From: Terriglobales bacterium
GTDB lineage: Bacteria; Acidobacteriota; Terriglobia; Terriglobales; SCQP01
Direction: 5' to 3'
Assembly (NCBI GenBank): GCA_025450725.1
Contig: JANWLQ010000166.1
Span: 1-34,715, forward strand
DNA: 34,715 nt
Shown here: piece by piece, positions 22,075 through 34,715 of the stretch
Position numbering within the stretch: position 1 is the first letter of the stretch
Layout: each line of letters begins with the position of its first letter
Position numbers and translations under genes: made by a program
Notes under the pieces: model-generated
What the model saw: only the letters and a program-made list of their open reading frames with translations
Databases searched by the model: none
What the model was told of the DNA's origin: nothing

Positions 22075-23706
22075 CTACTGTTTCGGGACGGGCGAGGCGC
22101 TGGCGGTTTGCGTCGTCGCTTCACGGGTCAGGAAGATCTCGACGGGAGTGATTTCGAACGAGAGCTTATCGCGTCCGGAAATAATGGCGGCCGCCGGGGC
22201 CTTGAGTAAGCTGATCTGGTCGGTCCAGGGATCGAGGTGGATGCGGCTGCCCAAAGCCATCGCAGGTTCCTGGTTGGGGTTGCGCGGCTGTAGGGCGGGG
22301 GCGGAGGCGATCAGCGCATTCATGCGATCGAGTCGGCCTTTTAGCACGATCGGGTTGCCCATGTGGGCGGCGACCAGATTGGGCATGCCCTCGGCCTGAT
22401 GGCTGAGCGCCAGTAGGAACAATCCGGCCTGGCCGAGGTGGCTGGCATAGGGGGAATTGTGCAATAGCTCGAGTCCCTTCTGGTCGGCCGCGGCTTCCTC
22501 GGTGGGGGTGCGCATCATGCGGATCTGCCGGAAGGCGTCCTGATCGGGGAAAATCATGCGGTCGTCGAACGCGTACTTGGTGTCAATTCCCTGGTTGAGC
22601 ACGATGTGGCCGAGTTCGTGGGCGATCACCATGGCAAGGCTGGCCTCGTCGGGCAGCACATCGATCAATCCGCGGCTAATCACGATGGTGTGGCCGACGG
22701 TGAACGACTCCATCGGAGTGGTCAGCATGACACGACAGCGGACCTCAGGTTCGATGTTGAGCTTGTTGGTCACCTCAAGGTTGTTGGTCACGGTGTCGAG
22801 CACCTTGTCGACCGCGCCTTCGGGGGAGAGCAGACCAGCCTTTTGCATGCGGACGAGAACGTCGTCCTCGGCCTTGCGCTCCCAATCGCGCTGGCGGGTT
22901 AGGGGAGCCTTGTCGTGGGAGGTCTGGCTCTGGTCGTCAATGGCCGATTGGCTATCCACCTGGATGTCGGTCAGCTCGGAGTGATTGGCGGAAGCAAGGT
23001 CGTAGCCCCAGAAGCGGGTGTAAGCCTTGATCAAAGTTTTGTTGACTTCGCCTTCTTCGGTATAGATGGCGGTCGGGAGCCAGTAGCCAGGGCCCATCTG
23101 GGTGCGCCAGCTATCGAAATGGAAGAAATGATGGGTCATGGGGTCGGGCACGAAGGTGCCGTCGAAGCGGACGATGTTATCCCCCTGGTCCTCGACCCAA
23201 ATACGTCCTTTGAAGCTGCCATGGGCGTAGCCCTTGCGCGGGACAACGTCAAACATATAGCAGCGAACGTCGCCGAGGAAGGCTTGGCCCTGATAATCAA
23301 AGCTGTAATAGGTGTCATTGAAGCGATAGCGATCGGGCATCATCATCTGCACAAAGCCGCGGGGATCGTAACGGCTATGGAAAAGTCCGCCGGCTTTGGC
23401 GAAAAAGCCGGTGTCGGTCTTGGTGAACATCGGTTCGCTGAGGCCATGGCTGAGATCCATGTAACCCAGGAAGTAAGTGTCACCGGCCGGTACGGATTGG
23501 AGATCCACATTGGGCTTGAGATTCTGAAGATAGGTTTCAACGCGCGGCTGGTATTGGACAACGCGATCGCGGAAGGCGCGTTCCTGGGCAATGACGCGAT
23601 TAATGATGCCTTGGATGTTGGTGTCGGCGGCGGGCGTCTGGGCACTGACAGAGAGGGAGAGTGAAGCGGCGAGCGCGACGGCGGCGAGAAGGGAATGGGT
23701 GCGCAT
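22075..23706 (-). CDS. M48-family zinc metalloprotease with long N-terminal domain
   Basis: A 543-residue exported protein. The signal peptide is at 1-22 (HSLLAAVALAASLSLSVSAQ). The C-terminal peptidase has HELGH at 363-367 (His363, Glu364, His367) and the third ligand Glu404 in EEAAAD. The N-terminal 300 residues are not part of M48: GDTYFLGYMDLSHG, then YMFDVVPRKGYAHGSFKGRI, WVEDQGDNIVRFDGTF, HFDSWRTQMGPGYWLPT. This pattern recalls the LolA/RseB-like outer-membrane lipoprotein-sorting fold. The ATG at 23706 has GGAGG 8 bases upstream; an upstream ATG at 23733 would overlap the TonB-like gene by 4 bases. It is probably a periplasmic quality-control protease, last gene of the PEP-CTERM run. 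Confidence 0.9.
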   Translation of the reverse strand: MRTHSLLAAVALAASLSLSVSAQTPAADTNIQGIINRVIAQERAFRDRVVQYQPRVETYLQNLKPNVDLQSVPAGDTYFLGYMDLSHGLSEPMFTKTDTGFFAKAGGLFHSRYDPRGFVQMMMPDRYRFNDTYYSFDYQGQAFLGDVRCYMFDVVPRKGYAHGSFKGRIWVEDQGDNIVRFDGTFVPDPMTHHFFHFDSWRTQMGPGYWLPTAIYTEEGEVNKTLIKAYTRFWGYDLASANHSELTDIQVDSQSAIDDQSQTSHDKAPLTRQRDWERKAEDDVLVRMQKAGLLSPEGAVDKVLDTVTNNLEVTNKLNIEPEVRCRVMLTTPMESFTVGHTIVISRGLIDVLPDEASLAMVIAHELGHIVLNQGIDTKYAFDDRMIFPDQDAFRQIRMMRTPTEEAAADQKGLELLHNSPYASHLGQAGLFLLALSHQAEGMPNLVAAHMGNPIVLKGRLDRMNALIASAPALQPRNPNQEPAMALGSRIHLDPWTDQISLLKAPAAAIISGRDKLSFEITPVEIFLTREATTQTASASPVPKQ

Positions 23707-23729
23707 GGTGGGGACCTCCAAATTCAAAT

Positions 23730-24716
23730 TCATTCAGCGAGCTGGAACAGGACATGGACGATGGCGTTGGTGGAGACGGGTTGACCGTTGCGGGTGGCGG
23801 GCTTGAAACGAATTTCACGCGCGACCTCGACGGCCTGTTGATCGAGTCCATAACCCAGTCCGCGCACGAGGCTGCCCACCTCAATGTTGCCGGAGGCGAG
23901 GAAGCTCACGCGGATGAGAACTTCGCCCTGGATACCGGCGGAACGGGCTTCGGGCGTGTATTTGGGTTCGGGCTTGTAAAGAATTTCGACCGGGCTGATG
24001 GCTTCCGCCGCAGCAACGGCGGCGCGAGCGGGACCGGCGGCGGCGGCACCGTCCCCAAACCCGGCGGACTGGACTCCGCGACCATTGCCGTTACCGTTGC
24101 CCCCTCCGCCGCCGTGTCCGTCCGCCGCGTCGCCGAAACCGGCGGACTGGACCCCGCGGCCGTTGCCGCCGCTTGGCTGAGCGTTAGTCGCGGCGCTTCC
24201 GAAGTCTCCGAGGTGGGCGACGTTGGTCAGCGGCGAGTGGGCGACGCCTTTTACGCCCGAGGGAGAGCCGAACCCGGCAAGTTGAACCGGGCGGCGCAAG
24301 GCGGCGGCATCGGGGGTGGGACTCAGTTTAGGAAGGGGCGACAATGCGGCGGCCATTTGAGTGGGGCGCGGCACAGGCTTTACCGCCTTGACGGGACGCG
24401 GCGCGACGATCTTGGGGGGATCGAAATGCGCGAGGCGGACGGGCGTGGGAATGGGCGCCGGGCGGCGGATGACCTCGCGCACCGGCTGGGTGATGCGAGG
24501 CGGCCTTACTTTCGGAGGCGGCGGCGGCGGTACGTAGAGCAGGACGGTACGGGCCGGGGCAATGGCACGAATGATGGGTGCGCGGGTCGCGGGCACGGCC
24601 ATGACGACGGCAAAGATCGCAGTCTCAATCGCCAGCGCGCGGCCAATGCCGCGCATACGCTGCGCGCGACTTGGACCATCGGGAAGGGGAGCGAAACTTG
24701 GAATGTTGTCGGTCAT
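23730..24716 (-). CDS. TonB-like energy-transducing protein
   Basis: A 328-residue protein with a short cytoplasmic tail (MTDNIPSFAPL), one transmembrane helix at about 27-45 (LAIETAIFAVVMAVPA), a Pro-rich periplasmic stretch starting YVPPPPPPKV, and a Gly/Asn-rich spacer with repeated GRGVQSAGFGD units. The C-terminal TonB domain (about 243-328) reads EILYKPEPKYTPEARSAG, IQGEVLIRVSFLASGNI, VAREIRFKPATRNGQPVST. No ExbB or ExbD is in the window. Standalone TonB-C proteins like this are common in Acidobacteria. AGAGAG precedes the ATG. Its first 11 residues and about 30 bases of DNA around the start are duplicated in the short ORF just upstream. Confidence 0.9.
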   Translation of the reverse strand: MTDNIPSFAPLPDGPSRAQRMRGIGRALAIETAIFAVVMAVPATRAPIIRAIAPARTVLLYVPPPPPPKVRPPRITQPVREVIRRPAPIPTPVRLAHFDPPKIVAPRPVKAVKPVPRPTQMAAALSPLPKLSPTPDAAALRRPVQLAGFGSPSGVKGVAHSPLTNVAHLGDFGSAATNAQPSGGNGRGVQSAGFGDAADGHGGGGGNGNGNGRGVQSAGFGDGAAAAGPARAAVAAAEAISPVEILYKPEPKYTPEARSAGIQGEVLIRVSFLASGNIEVGSLVRGLGYGLDQQAVEVAREIRFKPATRNGQPVSTNAIVHVLFQLAE

Positions 24717-24975: not shown

Positions 24976-25620
24976 TCACACGCTTTCGCCATCGGCCATG
25001 GCACCGATCCGACGGCGCATGAGGCCGCCGAGGCAGAGCAAGCCGGTGCCAAAGAGCAACAGCGTGGTGGGTTCGGGCACGATGCCGCCACTGACCGCGA
25101 CAGGATAGGGTGAAGAGGCGACGGATTCGATATTGGCGCCGTCCAACTGCACCGCGGCCTGGATGGTGAGTTTGGTGCCACTGAAACTGCCGCTGCCTTG
25201 AATGGTCGCGGACATGGCCACCATATCGTTGGCGGAGTCGGTGAAGTTCAAGGCGGTGAGCGCGCCACTGAAGACGGTTCCACTGGCGCCGGTAAGGGAC
25301 AAGGAGGAGCCGGCTAACCCCGCGGCGCTGGCGGAGAAGGACCCGCCGCCGTTGTTGGTTAACGGTGTGAACTGACCGAGGTTGAGGGTATAGCCACTCA
25401 CGGCGGAGCCGTTGAAGCTGCCCTCAGCGCCCCCGGACATGCTGCACTGGGAGTTACTGCAATTTCCCAGAGTGGCGCTGACGTTACCGTTGCCGGTGCT
25501 GGAGAAAGTCACCAAGTTACTTCCGGAGGAAGTAAGGGTGATGGGAGTTTGGGCACTGGCGCCGAGCGCGAGCATACCGCAAGCGGTGGCCAGGCCCAGC
25601 AAGGAGCGATAGAAGGTCAT
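24976..25620 (-). CDS. PEP-CTERM sorting-domain protein 2
   Basis: A 214-residue exported protein. The signal peptide is at 1-23 (SLLGLATACGMLALGASAQ). A Gly/Ser/Thr/Asn-rich beta-type body follows. The C-terminal sorting signal is VPEPTTLLLFGTGLLCLGGL followed by MRRRIG: the VPEP motif, one hydrophobic helix and an Arg cluster. An exosortase should cut near the PEP motif and release or transfer the protein to the cell surface or polymer. The body shares the pattern FSA..LAGS, GT.F.G.LTAL.F, V.M.A..QG.G.F with the preceding gene, so the two are paralogues. The ATG overlaps the stop of that gene (ATGA) and has a GAGGT sequence at good spacing. Confidence 0.93.
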   Translation of the reverse strand: MTFYRSLLGLATACGMLALGASAQTPITLTSSGSNLVTFSSTGNGNVSATLGNCSNSQCSMSGGAEGSFNGSAVSGYTLNLGQFTPLTNNGGGSFSASAAGLAGSSLSLTGASGTVFSGALTALNFTDSANDMVAMSATIQGSGSFSGTKLTIQAAVQLDGANIESVASSPYPVAVSGGIVPEPTTLLLFGTGLLCLGGLMRRRIGAMADGESV

Positions 25621-26279
25621 AGTGTTACCTCGAAAGCGGAGCGGCGGCGCAGGTACGCGCAGCCGGCAAGGAAGCCAAGTCCGGTCAACCAGAGCAGGAC
25701 GGTGGCCGGTTCGGGAACGATAATGCCCGCCTCATCCACGGTTGTGTTGGAGTTGGCGACGCCATTGATATTGCCGCCGGGAGCGAGAATGATGCTACCC
25801 AGAAGCTTGAAAACGGTGCTGGCGAAGCCCCCGGTGCCCTGCACCATGGCTTGCATAGTGACGACATTGGAGCCCGACAGCGCCTGGGAGAAGCTGAGCG
25901 CGGTCAACATGCCATGGAAGGCGGTGCCCGAGCCCGAGCTCACGTCGAAAGCGGAGCCGGCCAGTTCGCCGCTGGTGGCCGAGAAGGTGCCCGAGCCATT
26001 ACCCGTCAGGGCCAGCGGATCGAAGGTAGTGAGTGAGTAATTCGGTCCGGGAGCGCCGGATGGATTCAAGCTTCCAGTAAGGGTATGATTGCCGGTGAAG
26101 TTAACACCGGGTTCCCAGCCCAGAATGACATTGAGCGACCCCGGCGTGCTGCCGGTGTAGAAGTCAACGAACTGGGAGGAGGTTGCCATATTGATTGTGG
26201 TTTGAGCGCGGGCGGCGGTGGTGGAGAGCATCCACGCGCAGCCAACCAGCGTCACCGTAACGAGCCAGCTATGTTTCAT
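25617..26279 (-). CDS. PEP-CTERM sorting-domain protein 1
   Basis: A 220-residue exported protein. The signal peptide is at 1-25 (HSWLVTVTLVGCAWMLSTTA, then ARAQ). The body is beta-rich (FVDFYTGSTPGSLNVILGWE, TGNGSGTFSATSGELAGSAF, AFHGMLTALSFSQAL). The sorting signal is VPEPATVLLWLTGLGFLAGC followed by AYLRRR. All three parts of PEP-CTERM are present, so it should be a substrate of the exosortase encoded 3 kb upstream. The start at 26279 has AGGAGA 9 bases before it. It begins a new translational block 107 bases after the TPR gene and is coupled to PEP-CTERM protein 2. Confidence 0.93.
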   Translation of the reverse strand: MKHSWLVTVTLVGCAWMLSTTAARAQTTINMATSSQFVDFYTGSTPGSLNVILGWEPGVNFTGNHTLTGSLNPSGAPGPNYSLTTFDPLALTGNGSGTFSATSGELAGSAFDVSSGSGTAFHGMLTALSFSQALSGSNVVTMQAMVQGTGGFASTVFKLLGSIILAPGGNINGVANSNTTVDEAGIIVPEPATVLLWLTGLGFLAGCAYLRRRSAFEVTL

Positions 26280-26356
26280 TTGTGCGATTCTCCTTGGCGG
26301 CATTTAAGCCACTGAAAGTTGGATGCTTAATAGATGCGACGAGCAAGCAGCACTCA

Positions 26357-26386: not shown

Positions 26387-28588
26387 TCAACGCATGGACA
26401 CGGCTCCGGCGGCGTGGCCCGCTGCCATTGCCTGGCTGAGATGGAGGCGGTAGAGAGCGACATTGGGTTCCCGGGCGATGCATTGTTTGAGCAGCGGTAT
26501 GGCGCTGGCGGAGGCACCGTTGCGGGTGTAGGCGACGGCCAGCGTGTCACTCACCGAATCGACGTTGGGCAACAGCTGCTTGGCGCGCTGGGCGAGACCG
26601 AGAGCGAGCGCGGGGTTGGCGTTGGTTTGCAGATCAATCCAGGCGAGGTTGGCGGCGGCGACTCCGAAGTTGGGATCCTGGTCAAGGGCGCGCTGGAAGT
26701 AAGCTCCAGCCTGAGTGTAATTGCGCTGGCTGAGATAGAGATTGCCGATGAGGGTGATGAGGGGCGGAAAATTGGGCTTGTACGCGAGCGCCTGGCGGTA
26801 AGTTGCGATGGCGTCGGCGTCGCGATGATCGTCCTGATAGGCGCGCCCGAGCTGGAGGTAACTGATCACCAGGCTAGGATCGAGTTGGAGGGAGCGCTGG
26901 AGATCTTGTTCGGCGCGGGCACGGTCGCCGGCCTGGATCTCGAGCGCGCCGAGGATCTGATGGGCACTGGCGTTGAGGGGATGCGCGGCAACGAATTGAC
27001 TGACGCGGGCGATAGCCTGTGTCCGCTGGCCGTTGCCACTTTCAAGGTCGGCCAGCTGCGCCAGCGGTGCGGCATTGTCGGGCGCCAGCGAGAGTGCGGT
27101 ATTGAGATCGCGCTCCGCGACGGCGACATTGTGGCTCGCCGCATCGGCATCGGCAAGGCGTTGGTAGACGGCTGCGTCGTGCGGGGCGAGAGCAAGCGCG
27201 GCCTGGAATTGTTGGGTGGCGGGAAGGACGGCATGGCCGGCGAGCAGGGCGGCGCCGAGAGCGAGGTGAGAGGCGGCCGATGCGGGTTGTAGCGAAGCCC
27301 AACGACCGGAAGCCGCCAGTGCTTCGCGGATATTGCCTTGGCGCAGGTCGAATTGAGCGACGGCGGCGAGCACGGCGGGCGCATCCTCAGCCGAGCCGGC
27401 ATGGCTAAGCGCCTGCTCGTACTCGCCCTGGGCGGCGGCGGTTTGGCCGTTCTGTTCATAGACGGCAGCCAGAGCGGCATGGGCGGCGCCGGAGCTGGGG
27501 GCATCGCTGACGATTTGGCGCAGAGCAGAAGTGGCGGCGTCGACTTTGCCGGAAGCCGTGAGAATGCGGGCGTCGGCAATGCGATCGGTAACGTGGTCGG
27601 CGGGAGCGACCGAAGAGGCGCGCAGCAGGGCCGCATTGAGACGGGCCGCATCGGACCAGCGACCGAGGGCGAGATCGGCGGCCACAGCATCGCGCGCGCC
27701 CGCGGCGCCGGCGCGCTGAAATTCGCCTAACGCCTTTTCGACCTCCCCCCAACTCACATAGACACGACCGATGGCAACTGCCGCCTCGGGCGAGGAATCA
27801 TTGTGGCGCAGCGTAGCCAGCACCTGCTCGCCACCCGCCAAATCACGGCGATCGCGGCGGAGGTTGGCCCAGGCGACAAACAAGGCAGCGTTTTTCGGGC
27901 TAGCGGCGGTGGCGCGTTGAAAGACAGAGTCGGCGGCTTGCGGGTTATTCTCGACCTGGTACAGATTAGCCAAGTTCATATTGGCCGGCGCGAAGCTCGG
28001 GTTGAGGGCAATTGCCTGGAGCAGCGATTGTTCGCCGGCGGCGCGGTCCCCGCTCCCAATCTGCAAGACGGCGAGATTGACGCGGGCGGCCGGATCCTTG
28101 GGCTGGAGTGCGACCAGGCGAGTGAAGACGGCCTCGGCGGCTTTCGCCGAGGCGGCCTGATGATGGCCAAGCAGGGCGGCGCCGCGAAGCTGGAGCGCGG
28201 CAATGTTGCTGGGTTCGCGGGCAAGCACGGCATCGGCCTCGGCCTGGGCGTGGGCGGGGTCATCGGCGGCGAGCTCAAGCTGACCGAGCGCCAATTGGAT
28301 ATCCGTCCGCTGGGGATCGGCAGTGACTCCGTCGCGCAGAGCGAGATAGGCGGCCGAGGGATTGCCAAGCGCCAGGTCGGCGCGGGCGAGGCCGAGGAAG
28401 GCATCGGCGTCATGGGGATCTTTCTGCAGCGCCTTGCGGTACTCGATTGAGGCGGCGTCGGTCTTGCCCTGCTGGCGGTAGCGGTCGCCGCGCTGGACAT
28501 AAAAGGCGGCATTGCGCCCGAGCAGGCTGGAGCAGCCAGTGAAGAGCAGAAGGCAAGAGGCGATGGCGGCGATTTTGAGCGATGACAT
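26387..28588 (-). CDS. TPR-repeat lipoprotein, PrsT-like, of the exosortase locus
   Basis: A 733-residue protein with a lipobox (AAIASCLLLFTGC, Cys19). Almost the whole remainder is tandem TPR units of 34 residues, for example ASIEYRKALQKDPHDADAFL, GLARADLALGNPSAAYLAL, and RAEQDLQRSLQLDPSLVISY, LQLGRAY. Large TPR proteins with this arrangement belong to exosortase/PEP-CTERM loci (PrsT type), where they are thought to help polymer assembly or export. I chose the ATG at 28588, 10 bases after the EpsI stop; the longer upstream frame is antisense shadow without a signal peptide. It is probably cotranscribed with the exosortase fusion and EpsI. Confidence 0.9.
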   Translation of the reverse strand: MSSLKIAAIASCLLLFTGCSSLLGRNAAFYVQRGDRYRQQGKTDAASIEYRKALQKDPHDADAFLGLARADLALGNPSAAYLALRDGVTADPQRTDIQLALGQLELAADDPAHAQAEADAVLAREPSNIAALQLRGAALLGHHQAASAKAAEAVFTRLVALQPKDPAARVNLAVLQIGSGDRAAGEQSLLQAIALNPSFAPANMNLANLYQVENNPQAADSVFQRATAASPKNAALFVAWANLRRDRRDLAGGEQVLATLRHNDSSPEAAVAIGRVYVSWGEVEKALGEFQRAGAAGARDAVAADLALGRWSDAARLNAALLRASSVAPADHVTDRIADARILTASGKVDAATSALRQIVSDAPSSGAAHAALAAVYEQNGQTAAAQGEYEQALSHAGSAEDAPAVLAAVAQFDLRQGNIREALAASGRWASLQPASAASHLALGAALLAGHAVLPATQQFQAALALAPHDAAVYQRLADADAASHNVAVAERDLNTALSLAPDNAAPLAQLADLESGNGQRTQAIARVSQFVAAHPLNASAHQILGALEIQAGDRARAEQDLQRSLQLDPSLVISYLQLGRAYQDDHRDADAIATYRQALAYKPNFPPLITLIGNLYLSQRNYTQAGAYFQRALDQDPNFGVAAANLAWIDLQTNANPALALGLAQRAKQLLPNVDSVSDTLAVAYTRNGASASAIPLLKQCIAREPNVALYRLHLSQAMAAGHAAGAVSMR

Positions 28589-28598
28589 GGGCGTGACC

Positions 28599-29228
28599 TC
28601 AGTTGGGGATGTAGGCGGCAAGCCGCGGATAAATGAGACGGGCGAAGGCGGCCGCCTGTTCGTCGGCGGACGCAAGAGACTGATGAACGGGTACCCAAAT
28701 GCGCACCAAGGCGCCGTCGGTGCGGTGGCGCTCAAGGGCGTCGGTGGCCATCCACCATTTGGCGGCATACTCGCTGGCGATGACGCGACCGCGGCCTTGG
28801 TACCAGTACAGGACGACGGCCTGATCGGCACCCTTGGCTACCGCATAGTCATTGACGCGGATGGGAGCGTGGCCGGGGATCGCGATGGTTTGCTCGCGCG
28901 CTTGCAACGGCACCCATCCGCCGCCAGGCAGGCAATTCTTGGGAGAATGAATTGTGTCACCTGTGCGCTGACTGGGATAGTAGCCAACATATAATTCGAG
29001 CGCCTGACCCGCGGGCGGGGTGAAGCGTCGGTTGAGATAGTCGTGCACGCCCGCCATGGCGAGCACGGAGGGGTCGAGGGGCAGGTTGACACTCGACCAG
29101 CCCGCGACTTGAGGGGGGAACCGACTCAGCGGAACGGCCGACGGGACCTCCTCGGCGTGTTGGAGCGCGCCGAGAGCAAAGAAAGTTGCGCCGAGGAGGG
29201 CGGCGGTAAAGAGCAATGCCGATTTCAT
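28599..29228 (-). CDS. epsI: Exosortase-associated protein EpsI (DUF3485)
   Basis: A 209-residue protein with an N-terminal hydrophobic anchor (MKSALLFTAALLGATFFALG). The family signature is plain: LELYVGYYPSQRTGDTIHSP followed by KNCLPGGGWVPL (about 78-107), with the conserved Ser-Gln, His-Ser-Pro and Asn-Cys-Leu-Pro-Gly elements. VLYWYQGRGRVIASEY and WVPVHQS follow. EpsI proteins partner the exosortase and are needed for polysaccharide production in some bacteria; the exact chemistry is not known. The ATG overlaps the fusion gene stop by 4 bases. In many genomes EpsI is fused to the exosortase C-terminus. Here it is separate, while the exosortase N-terminus carries the fusion. Confidence 0.95.
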   Translation of the reverse strand: MKSALLFTAALLGATFFALGALQHAEEVPSAVPLSRFPPQVAGWSSVNLPLDPSVLAMAGVHDYLNRRFTPPAGQALELYVGYYPSQRTGDTIHSPKNCLPGGGWVPLQAREQTIAIPGHAPIRVNDYAVAKGADQAVVLYWYQGRGRVIASEYAAKWWMATDALERHRTDGALVRIWVPVHQSLASADEQAAAFARLIYPRLAAYIPN

Positions 29229-30913
29229 ATATGCTCCGGTTTCATGGTGGCCGCCAGCGCAACGGGGCGGGCAATAGGGCGCGGAGTGCGCCAGCGGCGG
29301 CGGAGGGCGGCGTGCAGCACCAGCAGCAGGCCGAGGGAGACGACAAAGATGAGCCAGCCGGAAAAAGCGTGAAAAAATCCTTCTGCGTACCTTGGGCCGA
29401 AGTCATACGTGAGAACGCCAGTGCCGAGGATACGCATGGCATTGGCGAAAATGGCGATGGGCACCATGCAGATGACAAGCAGGGCGCGAATGCGCAGCCT
29501 CGATTCAGTGAAGTAGCTGTAGCCGACCGCAAGGGTAATGAGCGAGAACAGGCTGCGGATTCCACTGCAGGCGTCGGCGACCGACATAGTGTAGTTGGGC
29601 AGCATGATGGTGTTGCCTTCGCGCAAGGCGGGAATCTGCAGCAGGTCGAGGCCGCAGGAGGCGAGGCGGGAGGCGACGAGCTGCAGTGGGAAGGTGATTT
29701 GGTAATAGATCACCGCCGGCAGCGGTATCATTAGGAACAGGAAGCCGAAGGGGAAGGCCCAGGCGCGGAGGCGGCGCCAGCCCGCGAAGAGCACTATGAC
29801 GCCAGCGAGGCCAACCAGCAGCGAAATCCGGGCAAAGAATAGCTCGGCGGCGAGGCGGCCAAAGACGAGCATGGCGGCGGCGAGGATCATAATGGCGGCG
29901 CCGGCGGGACTGGGGCGCAACGGCTGCCGACGCCAGCGATGGCGGCTGCGCCACAGCAGATACACGGCCAGCGGCGCAACGAGAAAGCCATGGCCGTAAT
30001 TAGGATCTGAGTACCATTGCCCGACAAGGCCAGTAAGTACCGGCCAGTAGATCACCAGAGCGAAGGCCGCCAAGGCACAAGCAGCAATCTCGGGAAGGCA
30101 ATAACCAAGACGGAGCCATTCGCCGGCGCACCAAGCGGCAAAGTTGTGGGGCCAGCAAGCCGCGCGGAAGCCGCGGATGCCATCGCGCTCGGCCAGACGC
30201 CAACGGGAGCGGTCAGAGCCAGACTGGCTGCGGTGGTGGCAGAGGCGAGCACGAGGCGTAATCAGGAAACGAGCCTGCGGACCGAGGCCAACGCAGTATG
30301 AGATGTCTTCACCGCGGGGGCAGCCCGGCCGAATGTCGAGACAGTGATAGCCGCGCAGAGCGGCGGCGCGGAAGCTCATCTGAGCGCCTCCGAGAACACT
30401 GACGGGAACGGGCGGAAGGTTCCGCGCCTGGTCCGGGGTTCGGCCAAAGGCCTGCCAGTGCAGCGCCGGACGCTCATCGCGGAACACGCCCCGACAGAAG
30501 ATGGTGCGCCAAAACAGATATGTCCAGGCGGGCGGCCGGTAGTTGGTAATGACGCCGGCTGCGCCGGTGAGCTTGGGATCGTCGCGGTAAAGGGCGAGAA
30601 GTTGGGCGGCGTAATCGGGTTCAAGCTCGATATCGTCGTCGAGAAACAAGAGGATTTCGCCCTGGGCATGCCGGACGGCGAACTCGCGAGCTTCGAGCAG
30701 GCCCCGGATCTCGGGAGTGCGGAAGTAACGCAGTTTAACCACCGTGCCGTTGGCGTCAAAGAGCGCCCGGACGGCGCGCTCGGCAGAGTCGTCGCGGCCC
30801 TGGTCCACGACGAGCAACTCAATGGGGAGCACGGTCTGGGCGAGCAGCGAGGCTATGGTGCCAACCAGGTCGTCAGGGCGATTTTTGGTGGGGATGAGGG
30901 CGCTGAATGTCAT
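29225..30913 (-). CDS. Family 2 glycosyltransferase fused to exosortase
   Basis: One uninterrupted 562-residue frame holds two complete domains. Residues 1-265 are a GT2 glycosyltransferase: FSALIPTKNRPDDL, VVDQGRDDS, the metal-binding LDDD at 91-94, GGAQMSFR and RGEDISY (Glu202-Asp203). Residues 275-540 are an exosortase: VIYWPVLTGLVGQWYSDPNY, GHGFLVAPLAVYLLWR, then ADACSGIRSL with catalytic Cys449, ANAMRILGTG with Arg494 and GFFHAFSGW with His515, spread over about eight membrane helices. The join (WPHNFAAWCAGEWLRLGYCL) lies where the GT's C-terminal part normally meets its own membrane helix. There is no internal ATG near it. A GTG at the VIYW position could in theory start a free exosortase but has no Shine-Dalgarno sequence. 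It overlaps both neighbours by ATGA. It probably adds a sugar and processes PEP-CTERM proteins. Confidence 0.93.
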   Translation of the reverse strand: MTFSALIPTKNRPDDLVGTIASLLAQTVLPIELLVVDQGRDDSAERAVRALFDANGTVVKLRYFRTPEIRGLLEAREFAVRHAQGEILLFLDDDIELEPDYAAQLLALYRDDPKLTGAAGVITNYRPPAWTYLFWRTIFCRGVFRDERPALHWQAFGRTPDQARNLPPVPVSVLGGAQMSFRAAALRGYHCLDIRPGCPRGEDISYCVGLGPQARFLITPRARLCHHRSQSGSDRSRWRLAERDGIRGFRAACWPHNFAAWCAGEWLRLGYCLPEIAACALAAFALVIYWPVLTGLVGQWYSDPNYGHGFLVAPLAVYLLWRSRHRWRRQPLRPSPAGAAIMILAAAMLVFGRLAAELFFARISLLVGLAGVIVLFAGWRRLRAWAFPFGFLFLMIPLPAVIYYQITFPLQLVASRLASCGLDLLQIPALREGNTIMLPNYTMSVADACSGIRSLFSLITLAVGYSYFTESRLRIRALLVICMVPIAIFANAMRILGTGVLTYDFGPRYAEGFFHAFSGWLIFVVSLGLLLVLHAALRRRWRTPRPIARPVALAATMKPEHI

Positions 30914-32475
30914 TGCGTAACTCCGGGGGTGACGCTTCGGGTAACTCCGGTCGAGGAGGCCGCCGGCGCGGCGAAGCGCCGGTTGGCCCGGATGAGAATG
31001 CGACGGAAGCTGAGCAGCATGGCTTGGCGCTCGTCGGGGACCACTCCGACGGCACCGGCGCAGACGGCGAAGAGCAGGGACTGGCCCAGTCCGGCGGCAC
31101 AAAGATGAGCCCAGCTCGAGCTGGACACCGGGACCATGCCCAGGGACAGCAGCGCGGAGCAGGCGAGCGCGGTGAGAGTGGCGCGAGCAAAACCGAGGCG
31201 GAAATACTCGCCCCAGCGAATGCCGGCCACGCGCAGCACATACCAAGGTTCGATGGCAACGCTGGCGATCAATAAGGGAACGGTGGTGCCCCAGGCCACG
31301 CCCCTCAGTCCATAGACGTGGGCCCAGTGAAAGCTGAGGCCCAGATTGGCGAGCCCTTCGACCAACGTAAGCGCGGCGAGGAAGCGATGACGGGCGACGG
31401 AAAAGAGAAGCAAGTTGGAGGGATACTGCGCCCAGGCCAGCAAATAGCCGGCGACAAGAATGAGGAGCAGCCCGTAGCTGGAGGCATACTCGGGGCCGAC
31501 CCAAAGATGGATCAGGGCGCGTCCGTCGAAGTAGAAGAGCATGCCGAAGTAGGCGGCAATTAAGGTGAAATACCGGGTGGCATTCAGGTAAAGGTGGCGC
31601 AGAGCGGCGGCGTCGTTGCGGCCGACGAACTCGCACATGCGCCCATTCAGAGGAGAAGCGATGGCCGACAGCACGCCCTTGGCGTATTCAATCAGACGGG
31701 TGGCGACATTGAAGGGCGTGATCAGGGCGACAGTGAGGGTACGGGCAATCACCAAGGCGTCGGTGTACGAGCGAAGTGACTCGCCACCAAGGGTGACGAA
31801 GGCGAAGCCGCCATAGACGAACAGTTCGCGGGCGCCCGACCAACTGGCAAACCGCGCGGAAAAGACAAGCCCGGGATCGGCGCGACGGATAAGGAAGGCG
31901 GCGAGGAGGAGAAGAAATACGGAGGAGACCAGGGTGGCGGCGGCAAGCGAGACTACGCCATGATTGGTGAGGAGCAGCACCGCAACCAAGCCATTGCGGA
32001 GCAGCACTGAGGAAATCGTCGCCACGTTGAAAAGATCGAAGCGGCGGATGCCGCTCATATAGTTGCCCAGGCAGCGGGCGGGAAACAGGATGGCGAGGCT
32101 GAGGGCCATCAACAGCAGGGTGTTGTGAAAGGCTGCGCCGGCAGCGGCGGGGAACACGCGGGGCGCCCAGACGAGGAGAAAAGGCAGAAGGAGAAGCACC
32201 AGCCCGGCGGAGGCGCCACTGAGGGCAAGGGCATTGGCGATGGTACGGTTGAGACCCTGTCGGTCGCCGGCGCCCCAATCGCGGGCGACAAACCGGAACA
32301 GGCCGTAGCGGAGGCCATTGTCAAAAAGACCAGAGTAGTCCACCAGCGAGGACGCGAGCACCCAGAGGCCGAAGATTGAGGCGCCGAGTCGGTGGATCAT
32401 AAGCGGGGCGATCAGGAACGACACCACCCCGGCGATGATGAGACCGGCTCCGTTGGATAAGATGCTGCGACGCAT
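30910..32475 (-). CDS. Wzx-type polysaccharide flippase (MOP superfamily)
   Basis: A 521-residue protein with about twelve to fourteen membrane helices. It starts RRSILSNGAGLIIAGVVSFL followed by IAPLMIHRLGASIFGLWVLA, typical of Wzx and oligosaccharide flippases. Further signatures are LFDNGLRYGLFRFVARDWG and the internal FVYGGFAFVTLGGESL. It should flip lipid-linked sugar repeat units across the inner membrane before polymerisation. The start at 32475 lies 2 bases after the stop of the glycosidase-like gene. The last residues (TGVTRSVTPGVTQ) come from a short imperfect tandem repeat in the DNA (gtaactccgg at about 30917 and 30940) and may be an extension. The ATG of the GT2-exosortase gene overlaps its stop. 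Confidence 0.92.
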   Translation of the reverse strand: MRRSILSNGAGLIIAGVVSFLIAPLMIHRLGASIFGLWVLASSLVDYSGLFDNGLRYGLFRFVARDWGAGDRQGLNRTIANALALSGASAGLVLLLLPFLLVWAPRVFPAAAGAAFHNTLLLMALSLAILFPARCLGNYMSGIRRFDLFNVATISSVLLRNGLVAVLLLTNHGVVSLAAATLVSSVFLLLLAAFLIRRADPGLVFSARFASWSGARELFVYGGFAFVTLGGESLRSYTDALVIARTLTVALITPFNVATRLIEYAKGVLSAIASPLNGRMCEFVGRNDAAALRHLYLNATRYFTLIAAYFGMLFYFDGRALIHLWVGPEYASSYGLLLILVAGYLLAWAQYPSNLLLFSVARHRFLAALTLVEGLANLGLSFHWAHVYGLRGVAWGTTVPLLIASVAIEPWYVLRVAGIRWGEYFRLGFARATLTALACSALLSLGMVPVSSSSWAHLCAAGLGQSLLFAVCAGAVGVVPDERQAMLLSFRRILIRANRRFAAPAASSTGVTRSVTPGVTQ

Positions 32476-32477
32476 AG

Positions 32478-34058
32478 TTAATTGGTGAACCTTTCGAGAT
32501 CCGCCTCCACCTGGCGATTGGCGGCAGTTACAGCGTCCACAAAACCGGTATAGGGGGCGCCACTGGGGTTGACCAATCCCCAGTTGGCATCTTCGCCGAG
32601 CTTGTCCATGTACTCCCACCAGGCGAAGCCAAAGACGGGGTAGTCGCCGCCGGGGACGCGGTGGTGAAACATCCAGTCGAGTTCGGCGGTGTAGGCGCGG
32701 GCGCGGTCGGTCTGAGAAGCAAAGTTGTAAACGCCGTCCACAGCGGCGCGACTGTGCAGGGCGGAGTCGGCGTCGGCGCGGAAGCCAAGCCACGCGAAAA
32801 CGGGCTTGGGGGTAAGTTCGTAGGTACGATCGAGCACATCGGGGCGCCGCCGGTCAAGAGCAAGTTGGAGGGCATCGCAATACCGGCCAGCCGCGCGCAG
32901 AATGGGAGCACGGGTCAGACCGCCGAAACCATTCAGCGCCCCGCTGAAGACGAGGTGGCCTGGATCGGCTGCGCGAATGGCAGAGGACGTAGTTTCGAAG
33001 TAGCGCTCGGCGTAAAGGCCGAGGAACGCGTCAAGGTCGGCGCGCACCGCAGGCGGCGCGTCGTCGCCGCGGGCAGTGCCGAGCCAGGAATGGCGGCCGC
33101 TTTCATCGAGCAGGCCGCTGCCCGCGGGCCAGCCGCCGTCGCTGGCGAACGTGGTGTACTGCGCGCCCCAAGCTGAGTTGAGATTGGCGATCGAGTGATA
33201 CTTGGTTTGAAGATAGTTGCTCCACGCCGCCTTGGTATAGACGGTGCGGTCGGCGTATCGTACGAGGTGGCGGGAACCGGCGCCGCCGACGTCGGGATTT
33301 TCGGTTTGAAATGGAGCGGTGATGGCGGCGATCCAGCCGAGATGGGGATGGATGACGCCGCCAACGCCTGGAATTTCGGGTCCGGGGCCAAAGCCGAACA
33401 AGTTATCGCTGTCATCGGCAATGGTCGCCAGCAGCCAGGGCGAAGCGCCGAGGGCGTGAGTGAACTCGGCCTGACGAGTCGGAATGGCGCGATCGTCGGC
33501 AATCGCGCGCGCGTAGATGGCGAAGTTGGGATCGAAAACGTCGGGGACGTGACCGGGCCAGCCGTGATAGACGCGGCGATCCACAGCACCGGCGAGCAGG
33601 GTCTTAAAGGGACCGGGCGCTAGATTGCCGGTGTTGAGGGCGCCATACCAGGCGACATTGAGTCCGCGGATGAAGGGCATCTCGGCGGGGTTGCCGCGCT
33701 CGCGATCGTAGGTGCCGACCGGTAGCGCATAATCGGTGGCGTAGCAGCCAAGTGTGTTGAAACCCCAGGCGCGAAGCTGGTTGACGGCGTGCTCGGCGAA
33801 GAGCAGCGGCTGCTGATGGAAGTCGCGGGCGAAGGCCTCGGTGGCGGCGGCGCCGCCGTCATTCCAGTCCACGCCGTAAACGGCGCGCATGAAGAAGGGG
33901 CGGCTCGTTGGATCGAGTAGCATCCAGCGGGAGCGGCGGCGGTTGAGGCGGAAAAAAACCGTGGCTGGGCCCTGGGCGAATGACCCAGGCATGCGACGGA
34001 GCAGCGGGGCGGAGCAAGCGGCGGCGGCCAGATGAGCGAGGCACCGACGGCGCGTCAT
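32478..34058 (-). CDS. Secreted putative glycosidase-like protein, paralogue of the lipoprotein at 19239
   Basis: A 526-residue protein with a Tat-like signal (TRRRCLAHLAAAACSAPLLR) at 1-28. The rest is homologous along its length to residues 240-792 of the He_PIG lipoprotein: LRAWGFNTLGCYA, ATIADDSDNLFGFGPG, HPHLGWIAAITAPFQTEN, LNSAWGAQYTTFASDGGW, PAGSGLLDESG, and near the end FAWWEYMDKLGEDANWGL. It has no Ig domains. Conserved acidic residues (Asp-Asp in the DD(T/S)DN motif, the Asp after WWxxx and the Glu in GExANWGL) are candidates for catalysis. Its place between polymerase and flippase points to trimming or remodelling of the exopolysaccharide. The start overlaps the ligase stop by 4 bases. 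The enzymatic role is inferred. Confidence 0.8.
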   Translation of the reverse strand: MTRRRCLAHLAAAACSAPLLRRMPGSFAQGPATVFFRLNRRRSRWMLLDPTSRPFFMRAVYGVDWNDGGAAATEAFARDFHQQPLLFAEHAVNQLRAWGFNTLGCYATDYALPVGTYDRERGNPAEMPFIRGLNVAWYGALNTGNLAPGPFKTLLAGAVDRRVYHGWPGHVPDVFDPNFAIYARAIADDRAIPTRQAEFTHALGASPWLLATIADDSDNLFGFGPGPEIPGVGGVIHPHLGWIAAITAPFQTENPDVGGAGSRHLVRYADRTVYTKAAWSNYLQTKYHSIANLNSAWGAQYTTFASDGGWPAGSGLLDESGRHSWLGTARGDDAPPAVRADLDAFLGLYAERYFETTSSAIRAADPGHLVFSGALNGFGGLTRAPILRAAGRYCDALQLALDRRRPDVLDRTYELTPKPVFAWLGFRADADSALHSRAAVDGVYNFASQTDRARAYTAELDWMFHHRVPGGDYPVFGFAWWEYMDKLGEDANWGLVNPSGAPYTGFVDAVTAANRQVEADLERFTN

Positions 34059-34715
34059 CGGAACATCTCCGCCAGGGTGCGGGCCCTGGTAACCATGGCC
34101 GGGGTTGACGGCAGCGCGAGGCGAGGCCGGGGGCTCTGCACAAGGACGCGCGCCGGTGCAGGGTGGGCGATGTGCCCGGCGAGCTCGCGAATGCAGGGCG
34201 TGATGAACAACATGAGCCACATCAGTTTTTGTTGTTCCGCGGATAGGAAGAAGATACCGACGGCACAGCCGATGAGGCCGATTTGCACCCCGCGGGAGGT
34301 TTGCGAAATCCAGTGATCGGCGGGAGCGAGGCGAGCGGCAACGCCGGCGTTGCGCAAGCCGCCGATAAAGATAAAAATGAAGAGCAGCAGTCCGGGCAGG
34401 CCCAATTCGGCGGCGACCTCGATGTAGGTGTTATGCGCCAAGGTCAGCACCTTGATGTTGCCGGTTTCATAGGAGAGAGTGAGCGACTTGAAGTTCCCGA
34501 GCCCGACACCGCCAATTGGATGAGCGCGGAACATGCGAATGCCAGCGGCCCAGGTGACGAGGCGGGATTGTTCCGCGGAGTTGGCGCTATAGTCGGGATG
34601 CAGCAGGCGGGCCAGAGGCGACTGCGGCAGGAGAACGAAAAGCGGAGCGGCCAAGACCGCAATCGCGATTAAACCGCCAAGCCGGCGGCGCTCGACCCAC
34701 AAGAACAAAACCGCC
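34055..34715 (-). CDS. O-antigen ligase/polymerase-like membrane protein (N-terminus outside window)
   Basis: The last 219 or so residues of a larger protein; the frame stays open to the window edge. The Wzy_C (O-antigen ligase) signature is complete: SRLVTWAAGIRMFRAHPIGG, VGLGNFKSL, then TLAHNTYIEVAAELGLPGLL, LFIFIFIGGL. Two or three membrane helices follow (LIGCAVGIFFLS, MWLMLFITP). It either polymerises repeat units or ligates polymer to lipid. It opens the visible part of the exopolysaccharide operon and overlaps the next gene by ATGA. The Pro/Arg-rich C-terminal tail (APARVLVQSPRPRLALPS) is unusual but lies in the same frame. Confidence 0.9.
   Translation of the reverse strand, partial: AVLFLWVERRRLGGLIAIAVLAAPLFVLLPQSPLARLLHPDYSANSAEQSRLVTWAAGIRMFRAHPIGGVGLGNFKSLTLSYETGNIKVLTLAHNTYIEVAAELGLPGLLLFIFIFIGGLRNAGVAARLAPADHWISQTSRGVQIGLIGCAVGIFFLSAEQQKLMWLMLFITPCIRELAGHIAHPAPARVLVQSPRPRLALPSTPAMVTRARTLAEMFR

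Follow-up and report, generated by a model that had tools for sequence, protein, structure and literature searches.

Whether an exosortase and a glycosyltransferase of the GT2 kind can be made as one protein, and what such a union would mean for the pathway that both serve, is the question raised by an exopolysaccharide locus from a Terriglobales bacterium. The window, that is, the whole stretch of 34,715 nucleotides analysed here, is an entire contig (C166) of a metagenome bin of 2.5 Mb that lies in 230 contigs and is 75% complete. A first-pass annotation of this DNA had described a single frame with a full GT2 domain followed by a full exosortase. The frame itself was confirmed by translation, by both domain matches and by both sets of motifs: 562 codons and a stop on the minus strand, with zero internal stops, encode the two domains in one frame (Table 1).

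Table 1. Features of the fused gene and of its neighbours, in window coordinates and in the direction of transcription.
Feature	Coordinates	Strand	Basis
Wzy / O-antigen-ligase-like polymerase, cut by contig end	34055..34714	-	PF04932 62.6 bits
Putative glycoside-hydrolase-like protein	32478..34220	-	Weak beta-agarase match over residues 324-571
Oligosaccharide flippase (Polysacc_synt_3 / MOP family)	30910..32475	-	NCBIfam, Pfam; orthologs upstream of exosortase in G002, G007
GGAG ribosome-binding site ahead of fusion ATG	30921..30924	-	Sequence
Fused GT2-exosortase gene, 562 aa	29225..30913	-	ATG at 30913, TGA at 29225-29227; translation, Pfam, family profiles
GT2 domain, residues 1-280 (profile match 2-280)	30074..30913	-	PF00535; family profile 281 bits
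GT2 D92-D93-D94 (DxD) motif	30632..30640	-	Sequence
GT2 E202-D203 (ED) motif	30305..30310	-	Sequence
First transmembrane helix, residues ~273-296	30026..30097	-	Hydropathy peak 276-294
Junction, residues 277-280, 4-residue overlap of two domain profiles, no linker	30074..30085	-	Family profiles
Exosortase domain, residues 277-543	29285..30085	-	PF09721, TIGR02602; family profile 400 bits
Exosortase nucleophile candidate C449 (ACSGIRS)	29567..29569	-	Motif as in PMC1569441
Exosortase R494 (NAMR)	29432..29434	-	Sequence
Exosortase H515 (HAFSG)	29369..29371	-	Sequence
EpsI (DUF3485)	28599..29228	-	TIGR02914 141.9 bits, PF11984
PrsT-like TPR lipoprotein	26387..28588	-	TIGR02917 241.7 bits, below cut-off 312
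PEP-CTERM protein 1	25617..26303	-	TIGR02595 20.1 bits, cut-off 16
PEP-CTERM protein 2	24976..25620	-	TIGR02595 25.1 bits, cut-off 16

The longest mechanical open reading frame extends upstream to a GTG at 31636, a stretch that overlaps the flippase gene, and for this reason we consider the ATG at 30913 to be the likely start. This ATG overlaps the flippase stop, and the TGA of the fusion overlaps the ATG of EpsI, in each case as a 4-bp ATGA. EpsI has a GGAG of its own (29234-29237), and the spacing of the GGAG is usable at both the fusion and the EpsI starts. With such an overlap and a GGAG site at each end, the gene boundaries are credible.

Both halves of the protein were recognised by curated models. 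PF00535 matched residues 4-119 (78 bits, Pfam cut-off 23.3), over positions 1-115 of the 168 in the model, with the remainder covered by a closer profile built from relatives. PF09721 matched residues 283-535 (259.6 bits, Pfam cut-off 25.7) and the NCBIfam exosortase model TIGR02602 also scored above its threshold (205.1 bits, cut-off 105.55). Family profiles for the GT2 and for the exosortase were built from fetched relatives. The GT2 motif residue D37 is intact, and the invariant exosortase Cys, N-x-x-R and H-x-x-x-G are all present (C449, NAMR494 and H515AFSG), corresponding to the Cys, Arg and His motifs described for exosortases in PMC1569441. Foldseek matches of the predicted model were GT-A enzymes, SpsA among them, and the solved structures related to the fusion by sequence were GT2 matches only.

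Compared with known systems, the fusion resembles the exosortase/EpsH family (TIGR02602, PF09721) in its full-length core, its Cys, Arg and His residues, its scores above curated cut-offs and its placement in an EPS locus with EpsI, a PrsT-like TPR protein and PEP-CTERM proteins; it differs in that a GT2 domain stands where a short N-terminal extension is usual. Matches to the subtype models fell below their cut-offs for XrtA (202.2 vs 208 bits), XrtD (223.9 vs 400), XrtW (207.2 vs 425), XrtV (168.6 vs 313) and XrtB (137 vs 275). In the XrtD (TIGR04152) and XrtW (NF038142) single chains an exosortase is joined to EpsI, the partner that adjoins the fusion here, and the fusion's exosortase and the separate EpsI of the locus match the two halves of models of this type. 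Here, however, EpsI has its own gene and the exosortase is joined to a GT2 at its N-terminus. Exosortase fusions to EpsI and to CAAX-protease-like domains were reported in 2006 (Haft et al. 2006, PMC1569441); the latter likewise combine an exosortase with a second enzyme domain, and served there as a Rosetta-stone hint, but their partner is protease-like and they numbered four, versus one GT2 fusion here. The GT2 half shares its GT-A fold, its DxD and ED motifs and its polysaccharide-locus setting with enzymes of the HpsN/EpsD kind (NF038299, NF041875), but falls far under their equivalog cut-offs and has lost the C-terminal tail. What appears to be new is an exosortase joined to an N-terminal GT2, seen once; exosortase fusions to other partners are already known.

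The way in which the two halves meet bears directly on whether the gene is real. The GT profile (2-280) and the exosortase profile (277-543) both lie in frame 0, with only noise in the other frames, and the peptide at their junction is WLRLGYCLPEIAACALAAF. Helix 1 is shared: the GT homology ends in it and the exosortase begins in it, and the last hydrophobic segment of the GT continues into this first transmembrane helix. About 29 C-terminal profile positions are missing from the GT part and about 20 N-terminal ones from the exosortase part. All of the motifs are intact, and to the earlier description of two full domains this adds that the GT C-terminus and exosortase N-terminus are shortened at the join.

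A single-base sequencing error at the junction was ruled out: both homologies abut in one frame, some 50 codons from the two gene ends are lacking, and the sequence leaves no space into which the GT tail and the exosortase head could fit. A concealed GTGA boundary between two genes, with a TGA in the +1 frame overlapping GTG287, was ruled out by the frame-0 homology: the GT profile stays in this frame through residue 280, and exosortase helix 1 needs it from residue ~273. Codons 226-280 contain zero in-frame ATG, GTG or TTG, and the earliest in-frame alternative starts after codon 280 are TTG281 and GTG287, both within helix 1. These two codons could in principle allow internal initiation and hence two proteins from one frame, but neither is preceded by a Shine-Dalgarno sequence and a start at either would truncate exosortase helix 1, making this a very improbable account. 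As far as the codons of this region indicate, a normal exosortase could not have a separate start here. One frame, intact motifs, a seamless junction, and ATGA and GGAG at both ends together argue that the fusion is one gene.

The assembly could mislead in another way, if about 150 bp at the gene boundary had been lost from the contig through misassembly or strain mixture and the genes were really separate. The source is a single MAG, a metagenome bin in 230 contigs, and the closest relative does have separate genes, both of which speak for such an artefact. However, the loss would need to be in frame with both homologies abutting exactly, a one-base error would be insufficient, there are no strong direct repeats flanking the junction, and composition and neighbours are consistent with the bin; we therefore judge an artefact to be improbable. 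In tetranucleotide profile the window fits the remaining sampled contigs of its bin best (r = 0.89); comparison with regions of other genomes gave 0.38-0.85. Elsewhere in the family, the flanking S9 peptidase has a single strong match, from a genus-mate (62% identity). Mis-binning of the contig was not supported by either.

The relatives that could be named were mostly acidobacterial MAGs. The nearest homologs (66% identity for the exosortase, 47-48% for the GT2) were located in G002 (L051; JAJPKR010000058, Centralia_MAG_96), in which the order of the locus is Wzy, glycoside-hydrolase-like protein, flippase, GT2, exosortase, EpsI, PrsT and two PEP-CTERM proteins, equal to that of the window. 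The difference is that in G002 the GT2 and the exosortase are unfused: each has a start and a stop of its own, and an ATGA overlap couples the two genes. Since the genes are separate in this closest relative, the fusion is most simply read as a derived event within a conserved locus, and it looks private to the lineage of the source genome. Separate genes in all close relatives, together with detection of two proteins, had been named in the first-pass annotation as evidence against a true fusion; separate genes were found in the closest relative. In G007 (L099, G007:C111) the exosortase directly follows the flippase and the GT2 gene is placed downstream of the PEP-CTERM genes, so that adjacency of GT2 and exosortase is not fixed. 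Genus-mates (G010-G013, L089-L094) had only distant exosortases (43-50% identity), with several copies in G012, while the orthologous locus was present in other genera of the family, a distribution that points to patchy inheritance.

Beyond these relatives, wide genome searches scored a few candidates per genome. Among the matches listed, none was full-length in the 14 family genomes, in overlapping samples of 397 order, 399 class and 396 phylum genomes, or, with a two-domain profile, in 372 Planctomycetota. A Pseudomonadota search at E 1e-50 returned zero matches, at a threshold too strict for this to count as evidence. When 84,980 species genomes were scanned with peptide patterns, only L051 among the matches listed had both halves, as separate genes. 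No plasmid-borne fusion was found (46 records with a match, 0 covering 80% of the query). This GT2 was directly upstream in 2 of 65 distinct exosortases with upstream sequence, one of the two being the fusion in the window. Counting other proteins with a GT2 followed by an exosortase, as had been proposed, gave none beyond the window in the samples searched; nor was a recurring GT2-exosortase family found, the architecture being absent from any second, independent genome in these samples. It was also absent from the curated models matched here, and was not found described in the literature searched, although an earlier mention may exist. The novelty claimed for the in-frame fusion was in these respects supported, but for one genome only.

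The exosortase part has eight helical segments in the predicted model, with a long helix 5 (386-424). Seven Lys or Arg residues precede helix 1, and the loop behind it has none. The loop from helix 2 to helix 3 has five, that from 3 to 4 none and that from 4 to 5 three; the long loop ahead of C449 has one, and the C-terminal end has four. Because these loop charges alternate between inside and outside, with the GT side positive (positive-inside rule), the GT2 domain is predicted to be cytoplasmic and C449, R494 and H515 to lie at the periplasmic face, an exosortase orientation that agrees with the EpsH topology proposed in PMC1569441. The two active sites would then have the membrane in common, but not the compartment. 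This is at odds with the suggestion in the first-pass annotation that the transpeptidase sits beside a site of sugar transfer, as the charge counts put the sites on opposite membrane faces; hand-over between them would need the adjacent flippase. The AlphaFold model (mean pLDDT 75, pTM 0.47) was confident for the GT-A core (residues 1-120 above 90) and moderate for the exosortase, and had one continuous helix at 258-302, of low confidence before 272. Since the model is moderate overall and residues 231-271 score below 50, it does not fix how the two domains sit relative to each other.

We then considered the state of the GT domain, in which 11 of 57 homolog-conserved columns are changed (46 kept), among them N77E, Q149P, F191C and D192L, versus 2 of 48 in the exosortase domain (46 kept). 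With that many family-conserved columns changed, GT activity is not to be assumed, and it may be altered or gone. The window lineage has evolved significantly faster than G002 in the GT (chi2 12.5) and the flippase (chi2 16.6) and weakly faster in the exosortase (chi2 3.6), while EpsI and PrsT were not significant. A degenerating GT might thus persist as a cytoplasmic appendage to an exosortase that still works, as both the poorer conservation of its columns and its rate excess over G002 would suggest. However, the DDD and ED motifs and the open frame are kept, the flippase is accelerated equally, the ratio of branch to sister is similar in the two domains (0.92 vs 0.40 in the GT, 0.44 vs 0.20 in the exosortase), and the L022 homolog, on an equally long branch, departs at 9 of 56 conserved columns. 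We accordingly regard a vestigial GT as quite unlikely. Decay specific to the GT was inseparable from general acceleration, given the flippase. The region of flippase and GT (30074-32475) is fast while PrsT and EpsI are not, as if the polysaccharide itself had changed; as far as rates can indicate, the pattern would fit either a changed glycan or relaxed constraint.

Within the locus, the exosortase co-occurs with two PEP-CTERM proteins, EpsI, the flippase and Wzy. Apart from this tandem pair, the bin (75% complete) had no PEP-CTERM match above cut-off, whereas G002 had 10 and G007 had 8, and the fused exosortase may therefore serve mainly the PEP-CTERM proteins of its own locus. The glycoside-hydrolase-like protein between Wzy and the flippase had zero Pfam matches, and in G002 and G007 weak counterparts lie at the equivalent position. 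Downstream of the PEP-CTERM genes, in the same orientation, are genes for a TonB-like protein and an M48 metalloprotease (Pfam; 22075-24716).

In pathways of the Wzx/Wzy type, a GT2 adds sugar to a lipid-linked intermediate in the cytoplasm, a flippase turns the intermediate over and Wzy polymerises it, and exosortases process PEP-CTERM proteins on the outer side. Against this background, the explanation we favour, and hold to be moderately probable, is a lineage-private fusion in a conserved exopolysaccharide/PEP-CTERM locus, by which a GT2 and an exosortase would be anchored together as one polypeptide. In the ancestor, the GT2 and the exosortase would have been encoded by two genes that shared a 4-bp ATGA overlap, and the loss of some 50 codons across the coupled boundary would have joined the membrane-associated C-terminal helix of the GT2 to helix 1 of the exosortase. 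In the resulting protein, a GT2 domain in the cytoplasm would lead into an exosortase of 8 helices whose Cys, Arg and His would face the periplasm. On the cytoplasmic face, the GT2 would attach a sugar to a lipid-linked intermediate, which the neighbouring flippase and Wzy would export and polymerise, and the exosortase would process PEP-CTERM proteins on the opposite side of the membrane. The fusion would mainly set a 1:1 ratio and a common location for two enzymes of one pathway, with no new chemistry, and the relative already makes the same two enzymes from coupled genes. The fusion is known from one MAG (75% complete), with no second species carrying it in the samples searched.

To our knowledge, what exosortases attach PEP-CTERM proteins to is unsettled. 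A closer functional link is conceivable, in which the fused GT2 helps to build a lipid-linked glycan that, once flipped, is the acceptor for exosortase-cleaved PEP-CTERM proteins. A GT2 of this kind accompanies the exosortase in each of three orthologous loci that also contain flippase and Wzy genes, and exosortase fusions were taken as functional hints by Haft et al. 2006 (PMC1569441), whose exosortase model includes a periplasmic nucleophile of unknown identity. Archaea offer a precedent for an acceptor made by the product of a neighbouring gene: pssA, next to artA, codes for an enzyme of lipid synthesis that ArtA-dependent processing requires (PMC7157517). However, the two active sites are predicted to be separated by the membrane, the GT of G007 does not adjoin its exosortase, this GT2 is directly upstream of just one other exosortase among the 65, and the fusion does not recur in the samples searched. 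We consider such coupling unlikely, and slightly more doubtful still the proposal, made by analogy, that the GT2 makes part of a flipped acceptor glycan for PEP-CTERM proteins and so forms the exosortase counterpart of the archaeosortase-PssA link.

Given its single occurrence and active sites predicted on opposite sides, the fusion is a lead rather than proof. As a natural fusion to a particular GT2, it points to one candidate glycan-building enzyme, and it offers a single-gene construct for asking whether glycan synthesis and PEP-CTERM processing are interdependent.
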